Below, piece after piece: positions 7,123 through 30,408 of a stretch of DNA of 44,808 nt. The translations under genes and the position numbers were made by a program. How positions within the stretch are numbered: position 1 is the stretch's first letter; every line of letters starts with the position of its first letter. This DNA is from Actinomycetota bacterium (GTDB lineage Bacteria > Actinomycetota > Acidimicrobiia > Acidimicrobiales > AC-35), in the NCBI GenBank assembly GCA_005884125.1, contig VAXP01000008.1:1-44808 (forward strand), given 5' to 3'. The notes under the pieces were generated by a model. It was given only the letters and a program-made list of their open reading frames with translations. It ran no database searches and had not been told where the DNA came from.

Positions 7123-8912
7123 CGGTCGCCCCGCGATCCGGCGAAGCCGGCCGCCGCCCCGGCCAGGAACACCGACCGCAGCAGGTCGGGACGGTCGCTG
7201 AGCCCGCCCGCGGGTCCCTCGTAGCGCACCTCGCCCTTCTCCAGGAAGTAGGCCCGGTCCGTGTAGCCCAGGGCGAAGCTGGCCTGCTGCTCGACGATGA
7301 GGACGGTCAGGCCCTCCTCGTCGTGCAGGCGCTGGACCGTCTCCATGAGGCGCTCGATGACGACGGGCGCCAGTCCCAGCGACAGCTCGTCGATCATCAG
7401 AAGCTCGGGCCTGGCCATGAGAGCCCTGGCCGTGGCCAGCTGCTGCTGCTCGCCTCCCGAGAGCGTCCCGGCCGGCTGTTCGAGCCGATCGCCGATCCAG
7501 GGGAAGTAGTGGATGGCCCGGCGGACCTCCTTGTCCACCTCGGCCGGGTCGTCGTAGATGTATCCGCCCATGCGCAGGTTCTCGCCCACGCTCAAGGTGG
7601 GGAAGAGGCCCCGCCCGCCGGGGACATGGCCCAGGCCGTGACGCACCAGCGACTCGGCCGGGAGCTTGGAGGCGTCCTCGCCCTTCCAGCGCACCCCGCC
7701 GGCCGTGGGACGGATGAGGCCCGACGCCGCCTTGAGGATGGTCGACTTGCCCGCGCCGTTGGTGCCGAGCAGCGCCACCCGCTCGCCCCTGCGGACGGTG
7801 ACGTCGACGCCGTACAGGACCTGGACCCGGTCGTAGTGGACGTCCACGCCGGCCAGCTCGAGCAGCACCTCACCCGCTCCTGCGTCCGGGCCTTCCTGGG
7901 CCTCGACGCCGGCCGCGTCCTCGCTTCGCCGGGCGCTGAGGGGACGACGGCCACCGCGGCCACCACTCCCCCGGGCGCCGCGGGGTTGCTCTCCGGCGCC
8001 GTGGGGCTGGGCCGCCACCAGCTGCTGCTCGCGGGGCGTTCCCAGGTAGGCCTCGATCACGGCCGGGTTGGCCTGCACGACCTCAGGCGTGCCCGCGGCC
8101 AGGTTGCGCCCCGCGTCCAGGCAGTGGATCCAGTCGGCCAGCCCCATGATCAGGGGCATGTCGTGCTCGATCATGATGATGGTGGCGTCGGTCTCCTTCT
8201 TGACCCGCAGCAGGAGCGGGCCCAGGGCCTCCGTCTCCTTCTGGCTGATTCCGGAGGAGGGCTCGTCCAGCAGGAGGAGCGACGGTCGCAGGGCCAGCAT
8301 GCAGCCGAGCTCGACCAGGCGGAGGGTGCCGTAGGAAAGCTCGGAGGCGTAGGACTCGGCGAAGGCGTCCAGCCCCAGCAGATCGATCAGCCCCTGGGCG
8401 TCGGCCAGGATCCTGCGCTCCTCGTCCCTGGCCTGGGGCAGGGCCAGGGCGTTGGCCAGCGCCCCCGAGCGCATGTGGCGGTGCAGGGCGACGCGGAGGT
8501 TGTCGGTGACGGTCAGGTACGGGAACAGGCGCACGTTCTGCAGGGTGCGGCCGATGCCGATGCCGGCCCGGTCCCCGGGGGCCAGGCGCAGGAGGTCCTG
8601 CTCCACCCCCGTCTGGGGGTGGAGATAGGTGATGCGGCCCCCGGCCACGGGCTGGAAGCCCGAGATGCACTCCATGAGGGTGGTCTTGCCCGCGCCGTTG
8701 GGGCCGATGAGGCCCACGATCTCGCCCTTGCGGGCCTCCAGCTCGACGTCGTCCAGGGCGTGAAGGCCTCCGAAGCGGACGGTGACATGCCTGCAGCCGA
8801 GGACGACGGGAGCCTCGACGCGCTCGTTGCCCACATCCTCGGCGCGTCCCTTGCCCCGCAACGGACGGGCTCGGAGGGGGCGGGCTCGCAGGGGACGAGC
8901 GGCCCTGGCCAT
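7119..8912 (-). CDS. Fused branched-chain amino acid ABC transporter ATPase (LivG-LivF fusion)
   Basis: Two nucleotide-binding domains in one frame: GPNGAGKTTLMECISGFQP and GTNGAGKSTILKAASGLIRP; second domain has canonical LSGGEQQQLATARALM. Start chosen at ATG 8912 (MARAARPLRARPLRAR...). Confidence 0.9.
   Translation of the reverse strand: MARAARPLRARPLRARPLRGKGRAEDVGNERVEAPVVLGCRHVTVRFGGLHALDDVELEARKGEIVGLIGPNGAGKTTLMECISGFQPVAGGRITYLHPQTGVEQDLLRLAPGDRAGIGIGRTLQNVRLFPYLTVTDNLRVALHRHMRSGALANALALPQARDEERRILADAQGLIDLLGLDAFAESYASELSYGTLRLVELGCMLALRPSLLLLDEPSSGISQKETEALGPLLLRVKKETDATIIMIEHDMPLIMGLADWIHCLDAGRNLAAGTPEVVQANPAVIEAYLGTPREQQLVAAQPHGAGEQPRGARGSGGRGGRRPLSARRSEDAAGVEAQEGPDAGAGEVLLELAGVDVHYDRVQVLYGVDVTVRRGERVALLGTNGAGKSTILKAASGLIRPTAGGVRWKGEDASKLPAESLVRHGLGHVPGGRGLFPTLSVGENLRMGGYIYDDPAEVDKEVRRAIHYFPWIGDRLEQPAGTLSGGEQQQLATARALMARPELLMIDELSLGLAPVVIERLMETVQRLHDEEGLTVLIVEQQASFALGYTDRAYFLEKGEVRYEGPAGGLSDRPDLLRSVFLAGAAAGFAGSRGDR
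8853..8897 (-). repeat. Three 15-bp in-frame tandem repeats at the N-terminus of the LivGF fusion
   Basis: CGTCCCCTGCGAGCC / CGCCCCCTCCGAGCC / CGTCCGTTGCGGGGC encode RPLRA-RPLRA-RPLRG. Confidence 0.8.
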
Positions 8913-10560: not shown

Positions 10561-10671
10561 CCCGCCACGGCGGGGGAATGACCGTATCACCCGAGGTGCC
10601 CGAATAGTCCGCGCCCCCCGGCCTCCCCCAATTCCGGCCAGACCGGGCCGGACGTGCCAGCATGCCCGCTC

Positions 10672-11844
10672 GTGGCCACAAGACGCCGGTCCTTCTGGGG
10701 CTGGGGATGGGAGGACGCGGCGCTGGCCCCCGACCAGCAGGCGGCTCTGGCCGCGGCGCTTTCGGCACGCTTCGGCCGCGACGTCACCGCGGCGCCGCCA
10801 CCCCGGCTCGAGGACCTGGCGATGCCACCCCCCCGCCTCGATCCTCCGGCCTCGCTGGCCCCGATCTGCTCGCAGCGGCCCTACGACAGAGCCAGTCACA
10901 CCTACGGCAAGGGGTACCGCGACGTGGTCCGGGGCTTCCGAGGCGAGTTCGGCCACCCTCCCGACGTGGTCGCCTTCCCGGCCGCGGAGGCCGATGTGGC
11001 CGCCGTGCTGGACTGGTGCTCGTCGGCGGGAGCGGCGGCCGTCCCCTACGGCGGGGGGTCCTCGGTGGTCGGAGGGGTTGAGTTCACGGGCGACGGCTAC
11101 GCCGGGGTGGTCTCGGTCGACACGAGCAGGCTGGCGACCGTGCTGGAGATCGACCGCACCTCGCGCGCCGCCCGCATCCAGGCCGGCATCTACGGCCCCG
11201 CCCTGGAGGACGACCTGCGCCCCCACGGCCTCACCTTGCGCCACTTCCCCCAGTCGTTCGAGTTCTCCACCCTCGGAGGCTGGCTGGCCACCCGCTCGGG
11301 CGGCCACTACGCCACGAACACCACCCACATCGACGATTTCGTCGAGAGCCTCAAGGTGGTCACGCCTTCGGGCGTGTGCGAGTCGCGCCGGCTCCCGGGG
11401 TCGGGTGCGGGACCCTCTCCCGACCGCATGTTCCTGGGCTCGGAGGGCACGCTCGGGATCATCACCGAGGCCTGGCTCCGCCTGCAGGACCGGCCCCGGT
11501 GGCGGGCGTCGGCCGGCGTGCGCTTCCAGTCGTTCGAGTCCGGGGTGGAGGCGGCTCGGGCCGTGGCCCAGGCCGGCCTCTACCCGGCCAACTGCCGCCT
11601 GCTGGACGCGGGGGAGGCGGCCACGTCGGCGGGTGTGGGCGACGGCAGCGCCCTGCTCGTGCTCGGCTTCGAGTCGGCCGACCACGCCGTGGAGGCGTGG
11701 ATGGCCCGGGGTCTGGAGTGCTGCGCCGATCACGGAGGAGCCGTGCCAGAAGGCGTGCGCTCCACGGTCCCGGCCCGGGACGAGGACAAGGGCGGGCAGG
11801 GGGGAGGCGCCGTCGACACCTGGCGCAGGTGTCGATGGCCATGA
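10672..11844 (+). CDS. FAD-binding oxidase, alkyldihydroxyacetonephosphate synthase (AGPS)-like, N-terminal fragment of a disrupted gene
   Basis: RRRSFWGWGWED..., HFPQSFEFSTLGGWLATRSGGHYATNTTHIDDFVESLKVVTPSG and GSEGTLGIITEAWLRL are AGPS-family motifs; frame stops at 11844 inside the C-terminal domain. Confidence 0.85.
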   Translation: MATRRRSFWGWGWEDAALAPDQQAALAAALSARFGRDVTAAPPPRLEDLAMPPPRLDPPASLAPICSQRPYDRASHTYGKGYRDVVRGFRGEFGHPPDVVAFPAAEADVAAVLDWCSSAGAAAVPYGGGSSVVGGVEFTGDGYAGVVSVDTSRLATVLEIDRTSRAARIQAGIYGPALEDDLRPHGLTLRHFPQSFEFSTLGGWLATRSGGHYATNTTHIDDFVESLKVVTPSGVCESRRLPGSGAGPSPDRMFLGSEGTLGIITEAWLRLQDRPRWRASAGVRFQSFESGVEAARAVAQAGLYPANCRLLDAGEAATSAGVGDGSALLVLGFESADHAVEAWMARGLECCADHGGAVPEGVRSTVPARDEDKGGQGGGAVDTWRRCRWP

Positions 11845-12260
11845 TGGCCGAGACCTTCGAGACGGCCACGACCTGGTCGGGCTTTCCCACGTTGCACGCG
11901 GGCGTGCGCGACACGGTGGAGAAGGCCCTGGTGGAGGTGTGCGGCGGGGGCACGGTGACGTGCCGCTTCACCCATCTGTATCCCGACGGACCGGCGCCGT
12001 ACTTCACCATCGTCGCCCCCGGGCGCCGGGGATCCGAGCTGGCCCAGTGGGACGAGATCAAGGCGGCGGCGTCCGACGCCGTGATCGCCAACGGGGGCAC
12101 GATCACCCATCACCACGCCGTGGGGCGCGACCACCGCCCCTGGTACGACCGTCAGCGGCCGGCGCCCTTCGCCGAGGCCCTGCGGGCGGCCAAGCGAGCC
12201 CTCGACCCCGCCGGCGTCCTCAACCCGGGCGTGCTGGTCGATCCGCTCCCCCGGGCGTGA
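11835..12260 (+). CDS. AGPS-like FAD-linked oxidase, C-terminal fragment in a different frame
   Basis: MMAETFETATTWSGFPTLHAGVRDTVEKAL...GTITHHHAVGRDHRPWY...LDPAGVLNPGVL (AGPS His-cluster and FAD-oxidase C-terminal motifs), in the +3 frame relative to the upstream fragment. Confidence 0.82.
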   Translation: MAMMAETFETATTWSGFPTLHAGVRDTVEKALVEVCGGGTVTCRFTHLYPDGPAPYFTIVAPGRRGSELAQWDEIKAAASDAVIANGGTITHHHAVGRDHRPWYDRQRPAPFAEALRAAKRALDPAGVLNPGVLVDPLPRA

Positions 12261-13330
12261 CCGCGCTGCGGGCCGCCGCCGCCCTCCTGGGCGCGCTGAC
12301 CGTCGGGCTGACCGTCGGCTCGGCCGTGCGCACGGTGGTGGTTCCGAGAGCCCTGGTCGCTCGGATCGGCCGCGTGGTCTTCCTGACCGTCCGCATGGCG
12401 TTCCGCCTTCGCATCGGGCCGTCGGCGTCATACCCGCGCCGCGACCGCGTTCTGGCCCTCTACGCCCCGACCGCCCTCCTGGTGCTGCTGGCCACCTGGC
12501 TCGTGCTGGTCGTGGCCGGAGGTACGGCCATGTTCTGGGGGCTGGGACAGGGTCGTCGCGGCCTGCGGGCCTCCTTCGACATGGCCGGATCCTCCGTGCT
12601 CACACTGGGCTTCGCCCGTCCGTCCGACCTGCCCTCGACCGTGGTCGCCTTCGGCGAAGCGGCCACGGGTCTGCTCCTCCTGGCCCTGCTCATCACCTAC
12701 CTGCCCAGCATGTACAGCGCCTTCTCGCGGCGGGAGGCCCTGGTGGCGAGCCTCGAGACACCGGCGGGGTCTCCGCCGTCGCCCGTCAACTTCCTGGTGC
12801 GGCTGCGCAGGATCCGGGGCCTGGACGACCTCGTCGACACCTGGAAGGAGTGGGAGCGCTGGTTCGTCGAGCTGCAGGAGACCCACGTCTCGTTTCCCGC
12901 GCTCGTGTTCTTCCGTTCCCCGCTGCCCGAGCAGTCGTGGGTCACGGCTGCGGGGGTGGTCCTCGACACCGCGGCCCTGGCCGCCTCGACGCTCGATCGC
13001 CCCAACGACCCCGCGGCGCAGCTCATGCTCCGATCGGGCTGGCTGGCCCTGAGGCGTGTGGCCGCCTACTTCAGGTTGGCCCACGCCGTCGACCCCAATC
13101 CCACCGACCCCATCAGCATCACTAGGGAGGAGTACGACGAGGTCTACAACCGCCTCCGAGCCGAGGAGGTGCCACTGCGGTCCGACCGCGATCAGGCCTG
13201 GCGCGACTTCGCCGGATGGCGGGTCAACTACGACCAGGCCCTCGTCGAGCTGGCCCGCCTGACGACCGCTCCCCCAGCTCCCTGGTCGTCCGACCGTGCC
13301 TACCCGCGGGCCCCCTGGTGGCGGTCCTGA
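12257..13330 (+). CDS. Membrane protein with a K+/ion-channel-like pore region
   Basis: GTG start overlaps the upstream TGA (GTGA). TM segments ALYAPTALLVLLATWLVLVV and a pore-like SSVLTLGFARPSDLPSTVVAFGEAATGLLLLALLITYLPSMYSAFSRRE, then a soluble C-terminal domain. Confidence 0.65.
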   Translation: MTALRAAAALLGALTVGLTVGSAVRTVVVPRALVARIGRVVFLTVRMAFRLRIGPSASYPRRDRVLALYAPTALLVLLATWLVLVVAGGTAMFWGLGQGRRGLRASFDMAGSSVLTLGFARPSDLPSTVVAFGEAATGLLLLALLITYLPSMYSAFSRREALVASLETPAGSPPSPVNFLVRLRRIRGLDDLVDTWKEWERWFVELQETHVSFPALVFFRSPLPEQSWVTAAGVVLDTAALAASTLDRPNDPAAQLMLRSGWLALRRVAAYFRLAHAVDPNPTDPISITREEYDEVYNRLRAEEVPLRSDRDQAWRDFAGWRVNYDQALVELARLTTAPPAPWSSDRAYPRAPWWRS

Positions 13331-13400
13331 CACCAACCCCAAGCCGGGCCGTGACCCGAGCTGGCCGTGGCCCGCGGCCATGACATGGTAGAGAGGGCGG

Positions 13401-15734
13401 GTGATCCGGGAAGCGCTGGCCGGCACGCGGATCGGGGTGACCGGGGCGACCGGGTTCCTTGGCACCGCGGTGGTCGAACGGCTCATGCGCTCGGTTCCCG
13501 GCTGCGAGGTCCTGGTGATCGTGCGACCGGGACGCCGCGGCGCCCAGGAGCGCGCCAGGCGCGACATCCTCAACAACGACTGCTTCGACCGCCTGCGTGA
13601 CGAGCGCGGCGCCGAGTTCGATCAGGTGGTCGGCTCCAGGCTGATCGCGGTGGCGGGTGATGTGGGCGTCGACGGGCTGGGGCTCGATGACGCGGGACGC
13701 GAGCTCCTCGCCGGATGCCGCGCCGTCATCCACGCCGCGGCCACCGTGAGCTTCGACGCTCCCCTGGACGCGGCCGCCGAGGTCAACCTCATGGGGCCGG
13801 CGAGGGTGGCCAGGACCTTGGCCGAGGCCGCGGCCGCGTCGGGGCGTCCCGTTCCCCATCTCGTCGCCGTCTCCACGGCCTACGTCGCCGGAACCCGCCG
13901 AGGGGAGGTGGCCGAGACCCTCCTACCGGAGACAACCTTCGCCACCGAGGTCGATTGGCGGGAGGAGGTGCGCGCCGCCCGGCGGGCGCGCCACGACTCC
14001 GACGCCGTCAGCCGCGAGCCGGCCCGCCTGGCCCGCTTCACGAAGCAGGCCCGGCGCGAGCTGGGCGCGGCGGGAACACCCCTTCTGGCCGAGCGGGCCG
14101 AGCGCATCCGTCAGGGCTGGGTGCAGGAGCGCCTGGTGGAGGCGGGACGGGCCAGGGCCCAGGGCCTGGGCTGGCCCGACTCCTACGCCTACACCAAGGC
14201 CCTGGGGGAAAGGGCCCTCCTCGACGAGCGGGGGGACGTGCCGCTCACGATCGTGCGTCCATCCATCGTGGAGTCGGCCCTGTCCGAGCCCTATCCGGGC
14301 TGGATCCGGGGCTTCCGCATGGCCGAGCCCGTGATCATCGGCTACGGACGGGGCCTGCTGCGCGAGTTCCCCGGCATCCCCGAGGGGATCGTGGACGTCA
14401 TCCCCGTCGACCTGGTGGCCGCCGCTCTCCTGGCTGCCGTGGCCAAGGGTCCCGATCCCGCCGGCCCCGTCGTCTATCACGTGGCCTCGGGCGCGAAGAA
14501 CCCCCTGCGCTACCGCCAGCTCGTCGACCTGGTGCGGGCCTACTTCACCGAGCACCCCGTGTACGACGCCGACGGGCAGCCCATCGTCGTGCCCCAGTGG
14601 TCCTTCCCGGGCCGGGGTCGGGTACAGGGCCAGCTCCAGCGGGCCCGGCGCACGCTGGGCGCGGCCGAGCGGGTGCTCAGCGCCCTCCCCGTGCGGGGCC
14701 GGCAAGCGGCGCTGTCGGCCAGGCTGGAGGAGCAGCGCAACCAGGCCGACCGGGCTCTGGGCTACGTCCAGCTCTACGGCGCCTACACCGAGACCGAGGC
14801 CCTCTTCCGCGTCGATCGCCTCCTCGAGCTGTGGTCCCAGATGGACAGGAGCGACCGCTACGACTTCTGGTTCGACCCGGGCGCCATCGACTGGACCACC
14901 TACATACAGGCCGTCCACCTCCCCGCCATCGTCATCCAAGCCCGGGTGCGCTCCAGCGGAGGTCGGCGCGAGGGCCCGTCACGGGCCGAGCGGGGCCGGC
15001 GGGCCGTCCTCTCCCCCCAGCGCCAGCTGGCCGCCTTCGACCTGGAGAACACCCTGATCGCGTCCAACGTGGTCGAGTCCTACGCCTGGCTGGCCACCCG
15101 GCGCATGGGCGACGGCGAGCGCCTCCGCTTCACGCTGCGCACACTGCGGGAGGCGCCCGCCCTCCTGGCCCTCGACCGCAAGGACAGGGGCGACTTCCTG
15201 CGCCACTTCTACCGCCGCTATCAGGACGCGCCCGCGGGCCAGCTGCGAGAGGACGCGTGGGAGCTGTTCAGCTGGCTCATGCTGACCAAGGCCTTCCCGG
15301 CCGGCATCCGCCGGGTGCGCGAGCACAGAGCGGCCGGGCACCGCACCGTGCTCGTCACCGGCGCCCTCGACTTCGTCATCGAGCCCCTCCGCCCGCTGTT
15401 CGACGACGTCGTGTGCGCGTCGTTGGGCGAGGCGCACGGCCGTCTGACGGGCGAGCTCGTCCACCCTCCACCGACGGGCGAGGCCCGAGCCATGTTGCTG
15501 GGCGCCTACGCGGACGGAGAGGGCATCTCCCTCGACCAGTCGGTGGCCTACGCCGACTCGGCCAGCGACCTCCCTCTGCTCGAGGCGGTCGGCCACCCGG
15601 TGGCGGTCAACCCCGAGGTCAAGCTGGCGGCCATAGCCCGCCGGCGGGGGTGGCACGTCGAGCACTGGTCCCGGGCCCCGGGCGGCCCCCGCCCCCTCCT
15701 CCCCCTGGCCCCCAGGGTCAGGAGCAGCGCGTGA
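13401..15734 (+). CDS. Fatty acyl-CoA reductase-like SDR (male-sterility/NAD_binding_4 type) fused to a HAD-IB family hydrolase domain
   Basis: 777 aa. N-term GVTGATGFLGTAVVERL, AAATVSFD, STAYVAG, SYAYTKALGER. C-term FDLENTLIASNVVESYAWLATRRM, VLVTGALDFVIEPL, AYADSASDLPLLEAVGHPVAVNPE (HAD-IB motifs I, II, IV). Confidence 0.88.
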   Translation: MIREALAGTRIGVTGATGFLGTAVVERLMRSVPGCEVLVIVRPGRRGAQERARRDILNNDCFDRLRDERGAEFDQVVGSRLIAVAGDVGVDGLGLDDAGRELLAGCRAVIHAAATVSFDAPLDAAAEVNLMGPARVARTLAEAAAASGRPVPHLVAVSTAYVAGTRRGEVAETLLPETTFATEVDWREEVRAARRARHDSDAVSREPARLARFTKQARRELGAAGTPLLAERAERIRQGWVQERLVEAGRARAQGLGWPDSYAYTKALGERALLDERGDVPLTIVRPSIVESALSEPYPGWIRGFRMAEPVIIGYGRGLLREFPGIPEGIVDVIPVDLVAAALLAAVAKGPDPAGPVVYHVASGAKNPLRYRQLVDLVRAYFTEHPVYDADGQPIVVPQWSFPGRGRVQGQLQRARRTLGAAERVLSALPVRGRQAALSARLEEQRNQADRALGYVQLYGAYTETEALFRVDRLLELWSQMDRSDRYDFWFDPGAIDWTTYIQAVHLPAIVIQARVRSSGGRREGPSRAERGRRAVLSPQRQLAAFDLENTLIASNVVESYAWLATRRMGDGERLRFTLRTLREAPALLALDRKDRGDFLRHFYRRYQDAPAGQLREDAWELFSWLMLTKAFPAGIRRVREHRAAGHRTVLVTGALDFVIEPLRPLFDDVVCASLGEAHGRLTGELVHPPPTGEARAMLLGAYADGEGISLDQSVAYADSASDLPLLEAVGHPVAVNPEVKLAAIARRRGWHVEHWSRAPGGPRPLLPLAPRVRSSA

Positions 15735-16939
15735 GGGCGCTCCTCTTCGAACGCTCCCTGGCGAAGGTCGCGGCCTCGCGCCTGGCGGGCTCGGTCGTGC
15801 CCGGGCGGGGCGCCCGCTTCGGTCCCCTGCGCCTGGCGTCGCTCTCCGAGCCCGAGCCCCCCGGGCCCGACTGGATGAGGGTGAGGCCCAAGCTGGCGGG
15901 CATCTGCGGCTCGGACCTGGCCACCCTGGACGGCCACGGCTCGCGCTACTTCGAGCCCCTGGTCTCGTTCCCGTTCGTGCCCGGCCACGAGGTGGTGGGC
16001 GAGCTCGACGACGGGGCCAGGGTCGTGCTCGAACCCGTCCTCGGCTGTCAGGCCCGAGGGGTCCACCCACCCTGCCCGGCCTGCGCCCAGGGAGACACGG
16101 GCGACTGCGAACGCGTCGCCTTCGGGCATCTGCGCCCGGGCCTGCAGACGGGCTACTGCGCCGACACGGGCGGGGGCTGGTCCACCGCCTTCGTCGCCCA
16201 CCGCAGCCAGCTCCACCCCGTGCCCGATTCCTTCAGCGACCGGGACGCGGTGATGGTCGAGCCCACCGCCTGTGCCGTGCACGGCGCCCTCAGGGTTCCC
16301 ACCGAGGGCGCCCTGGTCGTGGTCATCGGCGCGGGGACCCTCGGGCTGTGCACGGTCGCGGCCGTACGCCGCCTGGGCCTGCCGGGGACGCTCGTGGTCG
16401 TGGCCAAGCACCCGGAGCAGCGCCGCTTGGCCACCGAGCTGGGCGCCGACCTGGTCGTCGAGCCCCAGGGGGCGCGCCGGGCCGTGCGCCTGCAGACGCG
16501 GTCGCTGGCCGTGGACGGGCGCCTCACCGGCGGGGCCGACGTGGTCATCGACTGCGTGGGAAGCGCCCGGTCCCTGGCCGACGCCCTGGCCGTGGTGCGG
16601 CCCCGGGGTCAGGTCGTGCTGCTGGGCATGCCCGAGCCCTTCCGCACCGACCTCACGCCCCTCTGGCACCGGGAGGTGGCCCTGGTGGGCGCCTACGCCT
16701 ACGGCTCCGAGCCCCCCGCCGCGGGCCGGGCCCGGGCCCGCACCTTCGCCCTGGCGTTCGAGCTCGTCGCCGACGCCGGCCTGGGCCGGCTGGTGAGCGC
16801 CACCTACCCGCTCGAGCGCTACCGGGAGGCGGTCGAGCACGCCGCCTCCGCCGGGCGCCAGGGCGGGGTGAAGGTGGCCTTCGACCTGCGGGGCCAGCGG
16901 GCAACAGGCGAGCGCAGGGCCCGAGGGGCCGGCGCGTGA
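15731..16939 (+). CDS. Zinc-binding alcohol dehydrogenase family (MDR) protein
   Basis: GTG overlaps the upstream TGA. CGSDLATLDGHGS, PFVPGHEVVGE, structural-zinc-like CQARGVHPPCPACAQGDTGDC, VVVIGAGTLGLCTVAAV, GGADVVIDCVG. Confidence 0.9.
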   Translation: MRALLFERSLAKVAASRLAGSVVPGRGARFGPLRLASLSEPEPPGPDWMRVRPKLAGICGSDLATLDGHGSRYFEPLVSFPFVPGHEVVGELDDGARVVLEPVLGCQARGVHPPCPACAQGDTGDCERVAFGHLRPGLQTGYCADTGGGWSTAFVAHRSQLHPVPDSFSDRDAVMVEPTACAVHGALRVPTEGALVVVIGAGTLGLCTVAAVRRLGLPGTLVVVAKHPEQRRLATELGADLVVEPQGARRAVRLQTRSLAVDGRLTGGADVVIDCVGSARSLADALAVVRPRGQVVLLGMPEPFRTDLTPLWHREVALVGAYAYGSEPPAAGRARARTFALAFELVADAGLGRLVSATYPLERYREAVEHAASAGRQGGVKVAFDLRGQRATGERRARGAGA

Positions 16940-18525
16940 GCCCCCGCCCCGGCTTCGTCCTGGAGACCGACCGGGCCACGCCGCCCACCCTGTTCTGGCA
17001 CGGCGAGGGATGGCGCCTGGAGCGCCTGCCCCCCGGCAGCAGAATCGTGTATCCCCCCGAGCCCATGGAGGCCGTGGCCGACCCCGACGAGGCCGTGCGC
17101 CAGGCCCTGGCCCACCCCCTGGGCGACTCCGAGCCCCTCGCCGACCTGCTCAGGCCGGGCATGCGCCTGACCATCGCCTTCGACGATGTCTCCCTGCCCC
17201 TGCCGCCCATGCGTCCCCCCGACGTGCGCCAGCGGGTGATCGAGGCCGTGCTCGAGCTGGCCGCGGCCGCCGGCGTGGACGACGTCGTCCTCATGGCCGC
17301 GCTCTCTCTGCACCGGCGCATGACCGAGGCCGAGCTGCGCCACGCCCTGGGCCATCGCGTCTACGAGGCCTTCGCCCCCCACGGCCTGCTCCTACAGCAC
17401 GACGCCGAGGACCCCGACGGCCTCGTCCACCTGGGCTGCACCGACGCGGGCGAGGACGTCGAGATCAACAAGAGGGCCGCCACCAGCGACCTCATCGTGT
17501 ACGTGAACATCAACCTGGTGGCCATGGACGGGGGCCACAAGAGCGTGGCCACGGGCCTGGCGTCGTACCGCAGCCTGCGTCATCACCACAACGTGCGCAC
17601 CCTCCAGCACAGCCGCTCGCTCATGGACGAGCACCGCTCCGAGCTGCACACATCCAACTGGCGCATGGGACGCCACATCGCCGCCTCGGGGATCAAGGTG
17701 TTCCAGATCGAGACGACCCTGAACACCGACACCTTCCCGTCACAGTTCGCCTTCCTCCAGCGCCGGGAGTGGGAGTGGTCGGGGCGCGACCGGGCCACCT
17801 ACCTCGCCACGTCGGCCTCCCTGGCCCGTACGCCGGCCCGCCTGGCCCGGTCCATCTTCCACTCCATCCGCTCTCCCCACGCCCTGACCAGCGTCCAGGC
17901 GGGCGAGGTCGAAGCCGTTCACGCCCGCACCCTGGAGCACGTGCACCGCCAGCACGTCGTCCCCGTGGAGGGACAGACCGACATCCTCACCATGGGGTTG
18001 CCCTACATCTGCCCCTACAACGTGAACTCGATCATGAACCCGGTGCTGGTGATGTGCCTGGGCCTCGGGTACTTCTTCAACCTCTATAGGGGCAAGCCCC
18101 TGGTCCGCGCCGGTGGGGTCGTGATCATGAGCCACCCCACGCCCTGGGAGTTCCACCCCGTCCACCACCCCAGCTACATCGACTTCTTCGACCAGGTCCT
18201 GGCCGAGACCACCGATCCTCTGGAGATCGAGGCCAAGTTCGAGGAGTCCTTCGCCACCGACCCCTGGTACGTGCACCTCTACCGCACCAGCTACGCCTAC
18301 CACGGCGTCCACCCCTTCTACATGTGGTACTGGGGCGCCCACGCCCTGCAGCACCTGGGCGCCGTCATCGTCGTCGGGGGCGACGTGGCCGCCGTGCGGC
18401 GCATGGGCTTCAAGCCCGCCTCGACCCTCCGCGACGCCCTGGAGATGGCCGCCGACGTGGTGGGCCCCGACCCCTCCGTCACCCACATCCACGCCCCTCC
18501 CCTACTGCTGGCCGACGTGGAGTGA
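16936..18525 (+). CDS. LarA-like (lactate racemase N-terminal domain, DUF2088) protein
   Basis: GTG overlaps the upstream TGA. RLTIAFDDVSLPLPPMRPPDVRQRVIEAVLELAAAAGVDDVVLMAALSLHRRMTEAELRHALG matches the LarA N-terminal pattern; later INLVAMDGGHKSVATG in the LarA Lys region. Confidence 0.72.
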   Translation: MSPRPGFVLETDRATPPTLFWHGEGWRLERLPPGSRIVYPPEPMEAVADPDEAVRQALAHPLGDSEPLADLLRPGMRLTIAFDDVSLPLPPMRPPDVRQRVIEAVLELAAAAGVDDVVLMAALSLHRRMTEAELRHALGHRVYEAFAPHGLLLQHDAEDPDGLVHLGCTDAGEDVEINKRAATSDLIVYVNINLVAMDGGHKSVATGLASYRSLRHHHNVRTLQHSRSLMDEHRSELHTSNWRMGRHIAASGIKVFQIETTLNTDTFPSQFAFLQRREWEWSGRDRATYLATSASLARTPARLARSIFHSIRSPHALTSVQAGEVEAVHARTLEHVHRQHVVPVEGQTDILTMGLPYICPYNVNSIMNPVLVMCLGLGYFFNLYRGKPLVRAGGVVIMSHPTPWEFHPVHHPSYIDFFDQVLAETTDPLEIEAKFEESFATDPWYVHLYRTSYAYHGVHPFYMWYWGAHALQHLGAVIVVGGDVAAVRRMGFKPASTLRDALEMAADVVGPDPSVTHIHAPPLLLADVE

Positions 18526-18529
18526 CGGG

Positions 18530-19441
18530 GTGAACCGCCTCCTGCGCCGGGCGGTGCAACCCGGGTTCCCGTGGACGGCCCCGCAGTGGCCCCCCTCCCT
18601 GCCCCGGCCCCTGCCGCCGTCATCGCTGGGGGCCGGGTACGACACGGAGTGGGCCAGGCGGGAGCCGGTGCGCGTGGCGCGCGCCGTGCTCATGGACTCG
18701 GTTGCCAGGGGGGCGGTGAAGGTCCTGGCCTCACCCCGGGTCTCCGGCCTCGACCGCATCGCCGGCCTCGAGGCGCCGGCCATCTTCGCGGCCAACCACG
18801 CCAGCCACGTGGACACGCCCCTGCTCCTGACCGCGCTGCCGGCGCGGTTCCGCCACCGCAGCGCGGTGGCCGCGGCGGCCGACTACTTCTTCGACCGCCG
18901 GTGGAAGGCGGCCCTGTGGGCCTTCGCCATCAACGCCATCCCCGTCGAGCGGGCCCGGGTCACCCGCCGCTCGATCGGCCAGGCCGTGGGGCTGCTGAAC
19001 GAGGGCTGGAGCCTTCTCATCTACCCCGAGGGGGGGCGCAGCCCCGACGGTTGGGCCCAGGCCTTCCGGGGAGGGGCCGCCTACCTCTCCGTGCACACCG
19101 GGCTCCCCGTCGTTCCCGTGCACGTCGAGGGCACGCACCGGATCCTCCCGAGGCAGGGGCGCCGCATCCGCCCCGGCCACACCCGGGTGACGTTCGGCGC
19201 TCCCATCCGTGCCCATCAGGGTGAGGACACGCGCGCCTTCGCCTCCCGAATCGAGACCGCGGTCGCGGTGCTGGCCGACGAGGGCGCCACCGACTGGTGG
19301 GCGGCTCGGCGCCGGGCCGCCCAGGGCACGACGCCCCGTCTCACCGGGCCCCGAGCCGGGAGCTGGCGCCGGGCGTGGGAGCTCGAGGACCGGTCCCCGG
19401 GCCGGCGCGCTCAGGAGAGGCCGGGGAGCTGGGCGTTGTAG
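18530..19441 (+). CDS. 1-acyl-sn-glycerol-3-phosphate acyltransferase family (PlsC-like)
   Basis: NHASHVDTP (HX4D motif), YPEGGRSPDGW, FRGGAAYLSVHTGLPVVPVHVEGTHRILP. Confidence 0.9.
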   Translation: MNRLLRRAVQPGFPWTAPQWPPSLPRPLPPSSLGAGYDTEWARREPVRVARAVLMDSVARGAVKVLASPRVSGLDRIAGLEAPAIFAANHASHVDTPLLLTALPARFRHRSAVAAAADYFFDRRWKAALWAFAINAIPVERARVTRRSIGQAVGLLNEGWSLLIYPEGGRSPDGWAQAFRGGAAYLSVHTGLPVVPVHVEGTHRILPRQGRRIRPGHTRVTFGAPIRAHQGEDTRAFASRIETAVAVLADEGATDWWAARRRAAQGTTPRLTGPRAGSWRRAWELEDRSPGRRAQERPGSWAL

Positions 19442-29138: not shown

Positions 29139-30408
29139 GGCTCGTCCCTCCCCGTCCGGCCAGGGCCGACCTCAGGTCCTGGAAGGCGGTGTAGTTGCCC
29201 ACGAAGTCCACCTCAGGCACCCCGGAGCGGACGACAGCCTCCCGCATATTCGGCACCCGCACGTGCGCGACCCCGGCATAGCGCAGGCGCACGGCGAGGT
29301 CGGCCGAGCGCTCGCCCGTGGCCACCACCCGCCGGCCCCGGAGCCGTTCGAAGGGAACATCCCACAGCCACGATGGGTCCCGTCCGTCGGCGATGCGGGC
29401 GTTGATGGCGACCACCACGGGCGCCGGCGCGGGGGCGAGCAGGTCGAAGATCCCGACCCACCCCGCCGGGTTCTTGGCCAAGAGGAGGCGGGTGCGCACG
29501 CCGCCCACATCGACCACCTCGTAGCGGCCGAACACTTCGGTCGTCGACCCCATGGCGTCGAGGGCCTGCTGCACGGGCACCCCCATGGCGGCCGCGGCCG
29601 TGGCCGCCATGGCCGCGTTCCCCAGGTTGAACCGCCCCGGCAGCCGCAGTGAGAGGGGAAAGCGGCGGCCGTCGGCCAGGAGCAGCTGCCCGTCCTCCAG
29701 CCACACGTCGGGTCGGGGCCGGCGGAACCCGCAGGCGCAAGCCCACTGCTCACCCTGGTAGGCGATGCGCCCCTCGCACTGGGGGCAACCGCCGGCGTCG
29801 GCCCGCCAGGGCTGGCCCGCGGCAACCCATCGCACCGATCGGGCCGCGGATGCGGCCCAGACCACGATGGGATCGTCGGCGTTGGCCACGACGGCGCCGT
29901 CCAGCCCGGGCAGGGCCCGCCGCCACCGGGCCCCGAGCATGCGCACCTCGCTCACCCGGTCGAGCTGGTCCCGGCTCAGGTTGAGCAGCGTCACCACCGC
30001 GGGACGGGTGGCCGAGGCGACCTGGCCCAGCCAGGCCTCGTCCACCTCCAGGGCCGCGGCGGAACCGGGCCCCGACCCCCGGTTGGCGGACAGGGCCGCC
30101 ACCAGGCCCGACGGGAGGTTGGCCCCGCCAATGTTCGTGCACGCCGGTCCGGCGCTGGAGAGGGCCGCGGCCAGCAACTGGGTGGTCGTGGTCTTGCCGT
30201 TGGTGCCGCTGACCAGGGCGACCCGGCGGCCCCGGGCCAGGCGGGCCAGCGCGTCAGGGTCGAGGACCAGTGTGACCCGCCCGCCTATGACCGTCCCGCT
30301 GCCCGCGCCCAGCCGGCGGGAGAGCGAACCCACCAACCCACCCACCCCCGAGGCCAGACGCGTGCGGACGGGAAGCTGGGCCGTGTCCCCCGGGGTGGGG
30401 GCGCTCAT
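29122..30408 (-). CDS. murT: MurT-like Mur ligase family protein (lipid II isoglutaminyl synthase subunit)
   Basis: SGTNGKTTTTQLLAAAL, LLNLSRDQLDRVSEV, zinc-ribbon CPQCEGRIAYQGEQWACACGFRRP, C-terminal MurT-like domain; paired with GatD. ATG at 30408. Confidence 0.88.
   Translation of the reverse strand: MSAPTPGDTAQLPVRTRLASGVGGLVGSLSRRLGAGSGTVIGGRVTLVLDPDALARLARGRRVALVSGTNGKTTTTQLLAAALSSAGPACTNIGGANLPSGLVAALSANRGSGPGSAAALEVDEAWLGQVASATRPAVVTLLNLSRDQLDRVSEVRMLGARWRRALPGLDGAVVANADDPIVVWAASAARSVRWVAAGQPWRADAGGCPQCEGRIAYQGEQWACACGFRRPRPDVWLEDGQLLLADGRRFPLSLRLPGRFNLGNAAMAATAAAAMGVPVQQALDAMGSTTEVFGRYEVVDVGGVRTRLLLAKNPAGWVGIFDLLAPAPAPVVVAINARIADGRDPSWLWDVPFERLRGRRVVATGERSADLAVRLRYAGVAHVRVPNMREAVVRSGVPEVDFVGNYTAFQDLRSALAGRGGTSRAPAA

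Follow-up and report, generated by a model that had tools for sequence, protein, structure and literature searches.

The locus considered here raises the question of how a gene at the head of an apparently conserved operon came to be divided between two reading frames, and whether the division belongs to the organism or arose in the course of sequencing. The gene lies in a window of 44,808 nt (the whole stretch of DNA that was analysed), located on contig 64 of a draft assembly (3.74 Mb, 183 contigs), and it resembles alkylglycerone-phosphate synthase (AGPS). Counted from a GTG codon at 10672, its first fragment spans 391 codons including the stop, within a longest open reading frame at 10654-11844, and matches the PF01565 (FAD_binding_4) profile with an E-value of 3.4e-30. 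The nearest solved structures are those of AGPS, with the Dictyostelium and guinea-pig enzymes as the top PDB matches of this fragment (2uuu, E 1.7e-48; 4bby, E 2.1e-44). The FAD-oxidase_C, or cap, domain is not complete in one frame, with the first fragment covering only positions 1-92 of the 248 in the profile and the remainder following in another frame past a gap of 37 nt. The second fragment contains the His triplet (THHHAVGRDH), which aligns with the HHH of both 2uuu and 4bby. Judged by its sequence, the product is a flavoenzyme of the AGPS family with putative synthase activity. No second intact copy was found in the same genome, where other contigs gave weak, short matches only; a second genome of the same family was sought for comparison and none was found, and the best relative recovered is 82% identical in the C-terminal part.

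The break itself can be placed within a few nucleotides. The first frame holds up to a W-R pair (11821-11826), after which the fragment ends out of frame as ...GGGAVDTWRRCRWP (that is, WRRCRWP) at a TGA stop (11842-11844). The family homology restarts as (LAQ)VSMAMMAETFETATTW in the frame of 11820/11829, takes over from V-S-M at 11829 and runs to the TGA at 12258-12260. The codons on both flanks are native to the family (A-V-D-T-W-R before the break, V-S-M-A-M-M-A-E-T after it), and the two bases between them, AG, could belong to either side. This change of frame bears out the position that a previous sequence-only reading had assigned to the break. Among 121 matches from relatives, some in the same order and others in different phyla, the W of W-R/K and the E-T within the (E/D)-T-F-E-T motif are 22 residues apart in 118 and 20 residues apart in three. 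In the window, the Trp codon (11821) and the Glu codon (11850) are separated by 29 nt, where a spacing of 22 residues would give 66 nt, and 37 nt are hence missing, equivalent to 12 codons plus 1 nt and therefore causing a frameshift. The family consensus at this point is W-R-(N/S)-(A/S)-F-L-R-A-P-Y-x-R-D-A-L-V, from which (N/S)(A/S)F(L/I)RAPYxRDAL has been deleted. The alignment thus agrees with the earlier proposal that about a dozen residues, including a Tyr-x-Arg, had been lost through a multi-base deletion and not a single-base error, and no relative recovered is either split or short by 37 nt at the junction. The three 20-residue relatives (L019, L020 and L024) carry a variant of the segment, of the WRDAFIGVGPGLDTSLGL type, in a single frame and without R-A-P-Y-x-R-D; this form is a natural variant of the family, in which the Arg515-type residue discussed below may be absent.

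The alignment of an intact relative (L005) with guinea-pig AGPS (4bby) places the R-D of the segment on residues 515-516. The Arg of Y-x-R-D that aligns with Arg515 is deleted in the window gene and kept in 97 of 112 relatives. We take Arg515 of the guinea-pig enzyme to be a catalytic, active-site residue; a literature search for papers that name it found none. As it stands, the gene would yield a C-terminally truncated protein, and a coupled restart at the ATGA where the stop of the first fragment overlaps an in-frame start of the second could possibly provide a separate C-terminal fragment.

The genomic context points to a putative, conserved ether-lipid operon with the AGPS-like gene at its head (Table 1). 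The succession of AGPS, fatty acyl-CoA reductase and alcohol dehydrogenase genes is shared with six genomes from other families of the same order, with the exception of the 357-aa protein encoded between the first two, which tblastn did not find between AGPS and the reductase in these six relatives and which is apparently membrane-spanning. In those same genomes, the Lar_N and PlsC genes follow wherever the available stretch extends far enough. The Lar_N protein, at about 80% identity across families, is the best conserved member of the cluster at 10672-19441.

Table 1. Coordinates of the AGPS-like gene, the elements at its break and the genes downstream
Feature	Position	Strand	Description
AGPS-like gene, both fragments	10672-12260	+	split over two reading frames
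Fragment 1	10672..11844	+	FAD_binding_4 and beginning of FAD-oxidase_C
Inverted repeat, left arm	11809..11822	+	GCCGTCGACACCTG
Hairpin loop	11823-11825	+	GCG, 3 nt
Inverted repeat, right arm	11826..11839	+	CAGGTGTCGATGGC; 13/14 complementary, one G.T
Deletion junction	11826..11829	+	W-R flank joined to V-S-M flank; 37 nt gone
Fragment 2	11829..12260	+	other frame; VSMAMMAETFET...HHHAVGRDHRPWYDRQRP...LNPGVL
ATGA	11841..11844	+	stop of fragment 1 (TGA) shared in part with an in-frame ATG of fragment 2
357-aa protein	12257..13330	+	next gene; 4-nt overlap with AGPS-like stop; no Pfam match
Fatty acyl-CoA reductase-like (NAD_binding_4)	13401..15734	+	C-terminal HAD domain; conserved neighbour of AGPS
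Zinc-type alcohol dehydrogenase	15731..16939	+	conserved in cluster
Lar_N-domain protein	16936..18525	+	conserved in cluster
PlsC-type acyltransferase	18530..19441	+	conserved in cluster

The deletion junction coincides with the apex of a 14-nt inverted repeat, which the sequence-only reading, having proposed a direct repeat instead, had left unmentioned. Folded as DNA, the strand bearing this hairpin is more stable than expected (z -2.88), with none of 200 shuffled sequences equally stable, and folding as RNA gives a similar value (z -2.95; 3/200 shuffles equally stable). A screen for perfect stems of at least 10 bp with loops of 3-8 nt, conducted on 322 kb of the genome including the window, returned 13 hairpins, the one at the junction among them. 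When random excisions of 37 nt were simulated on 322 kb from the source genome (60,000 trials), a stem of at least 10 bp arose at the junction in a fraction of 2.7e-4. The lesion hence lies where a template switch would be expected to leave it, at the apex of an inverted repeat far stronger than chance would provide. A complementary run of at least 8 nt across the segment is seen in only two of 112 distinct relatives, and since the arms are absent from most of the family, the repeat would either have arisen by chance in this lineage and then provoked the event, or be in part a product of the event itself. The hairpin has no match in Rfam. Two further hairpins of the window lie within coding sequence in which the frame is intact: one with an 11-bp stem at 29583-29612 (CCATGGCGGCC...GGCCGCCATGG), and one with a 10-bp stem at 8601-8624 (CTCCACCCCC...GGGGGTGGAG), inside a minus-strand ABC-transporter gene.

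The reading that we favour, with a probability of roughly 55%, is that a single and recent deletion, associated with the inverted repeat, took place in the organism and inactivated the AGPS-like gene of the putative ether-lipid operon. The intact gene would very probably have carried arms of about 12 nt (GCCGTCGACACC and GGTGTCGATGGC) on either side of a loop of about 44 nt; these arms are deduced from the codons native to the family. One event would then have excised 37 nt of cap-domain coding sequence, that is, the greater part of the loop, so that the arms remained as a hairpin with a loop of 3 nt. Under a template switch, the growing strand would have folded back, copied a few bases of the left arm and re-annealed downstream on the right arm; alternatively, the tip of the hairpin could have been cut and the ends re-joined, a route that would lead to the same product and that the data fit equally. 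Mutations by template switching at inverted repeats have been described in bacteria as well as in other organisms, and one survey notes that sizeable deletions can in principle result from them (PMC7954356). The gene would thereby have been frameshifted, deprived of its W-R...R-A-P-Y-x-R-D segment and divided in two, presumably with loss of activity.

Other routes to the same junction, and other roles for it, fit the evidence less well. The sequence-only reading had attributed the deletion to a direct repeat, CTGGCGC, read once as the end of the first part (W-R) and once as the start of the second (L-A-Q). This motif is present as one copy only, and a reading in two frames is possible for every 9-mer. 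As a 7-nt repeat, it would also require L-A-Q to be native at family positions 12-14, yet none of the 112 distinct relatives has Leu at position 12 (D in 94, E in 10, N in six, P in one and S in one; D, E or N hence in 110/112), and just three have Gln at position 14. Since TGG-CGC and GTG-TCG-ATG are the codons native to the family on either side, the former has been assigned to the left flank and the latter to the right, which probably leaves 0-2 nt of homology at the break. With some codon choices a match of 4-6 nt, GCGC(AG), is possible, and some relatives (L117, L118 and L005) do have GAC-GCG-CTG at this point, which would allow a 4-nt GCGC homology with TGG-CGC. Even so, slippage between direct repeats of either length would leave the inverted repeat as a coincidence, one that chance would supply with a frequency of about 3e-4, and we regard it as improbable. 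Less probably, a plain deletion that needed hardly any homology, or none, could have fallen on the hairpin by chance. A functional role for the break appears far less credible. Translational bypassing or frameshifting was rejected as an explanation, given that residues are lacking and not in surplus. A run of G residues suited to -1 slippage (G_GGG_GGA, 11799-11805) does lie in phase, 3 nt upstream of a stem that is stable as RNA, and the stop-start overlap at ATGA could serve for a restart. Neither device, however, would bring back the 12 lost residues, which nearly all relatives conserve and to which the Arg515-aligned one belongs, and on this ground any product is regarded as inactive. With the split form seen in no relative recovered and no Rfam match at the stem, a recoded or two-part working enzyme is the least probable of all the readings weighed here. 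Scarcely more plausible is a recurrent switch, in which the hairpin would drive repeated deletion of the loop in part of the population and turn ether-lipid synthesis off in some strains; the species would then be polymorphic at the AGPS hairpin.

The rival that deserves most attention is that the deletion was made in vitro and that the organism's gene is intact. The arms would have paired while the DNA was fragmented, end-repaired or amplified, and a consensus built at low coverage would, as a further step, have adopted the faulty molecule. The condition of the gene fits such an origin. It retains 131 of 132 near-invariant family residues (96/97 in the first part and 35/35 in the second), no additional stop or frameshift is present in its remainder, and no relaxation of selection was detected on the second fragment, which ranks 22 of 45 in divergence, an average place within the family. 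A gene otherwise sound, in a conserved and complete operon, implies that the lesion is either very recent or absent from the organism. Furthermore, the genome was assembled to draft level only, in many contigs, and chimeric reads have been documented at natural inverted repeats and palindromes (PMC10908179). The documented cases, however, are reads that turn back onto the opposite strand, mostly at low frequency, and not clean deletions of a loop followed by correct continuation. Nor was assembly-wide trouble at hairpins found in the 322 kb searched: none of the 12 other hairpins with stems of at least 10 bp shows a same-strand frame break, eight of them being located within or next to coding sequence whose best frame is the same before and after the stem, and the remaining four at gene edges or in intergenic regions. 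Elsewhere, five overlaps that had looked suspicious turned out to be genuine adjacent genes, with no further split gene among them. Lastly, a graph assembler would presumably need reads bearing the junction itself, for which repeats of 12 nt would not suffice. On balance, the artefact is a serious yet rather unlikely reading, and a real lesion is somewhat favoured over it.

In either case, nothing about the break is out of the ordinary: as a recent mutation or as a library error it would not surprise specialists, and it does not point to a new system. What changes is the proposed mechanism, with an inverted repeat in place of the direct repeat previously proposed. The practical consequence is that one small lesion would lead an annotation pipeline to score AGPS as missing from a putative ether-lipid operon that is complete in all other respects. 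Should the deletion be real, the lineage may very recently have lost the AGPS route to ether lipids; if it arose in the library, the locus provides a useful case of hairpin-linked errors in draft genomes.

The locus can be compared with known systems at the levels of enzyme, operon and mutation. The intact relative L005 aligns with Dictyostelium (2uuu) and guinea-pig (4bby) AGPS in both halves, with the HHH motif and FET region in the C-terminal half, whereas the window gene is in two frames and lacks the W-R...R-A-P-Y-x-R-D segment, which reaches up to guinea-pig Arg515-Asp516. The MXAN_1676-1674 operon of Myxococcus xanthus likewise combines an AGPS homologue with fatty acyl-CoA reductase and acyltransferase functions (PMC9131029); in the window, by contrast, the reductase includes a HAD domain, the acyltransferase has a gene of its own, and genes for an alcohol dehydrogenase and a Lar_N-domain protein are present in addition. 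Disruption of MXAN_1676, the AGPS homologue, lowers ether lipids only slightly (PMC9131029), suggesting that the loss of such a gene can be tolerated. As regards the mutation, the near-perfect inverted repeat with a lesion at its apex resembles the quasipalindrome and template-switch mutations described elsewhere (PMC7954356, PMC7202029), although typical quasipalindrome events are small changes that perfect the arms, and the event proposed here is a net deletion of 37 nt.
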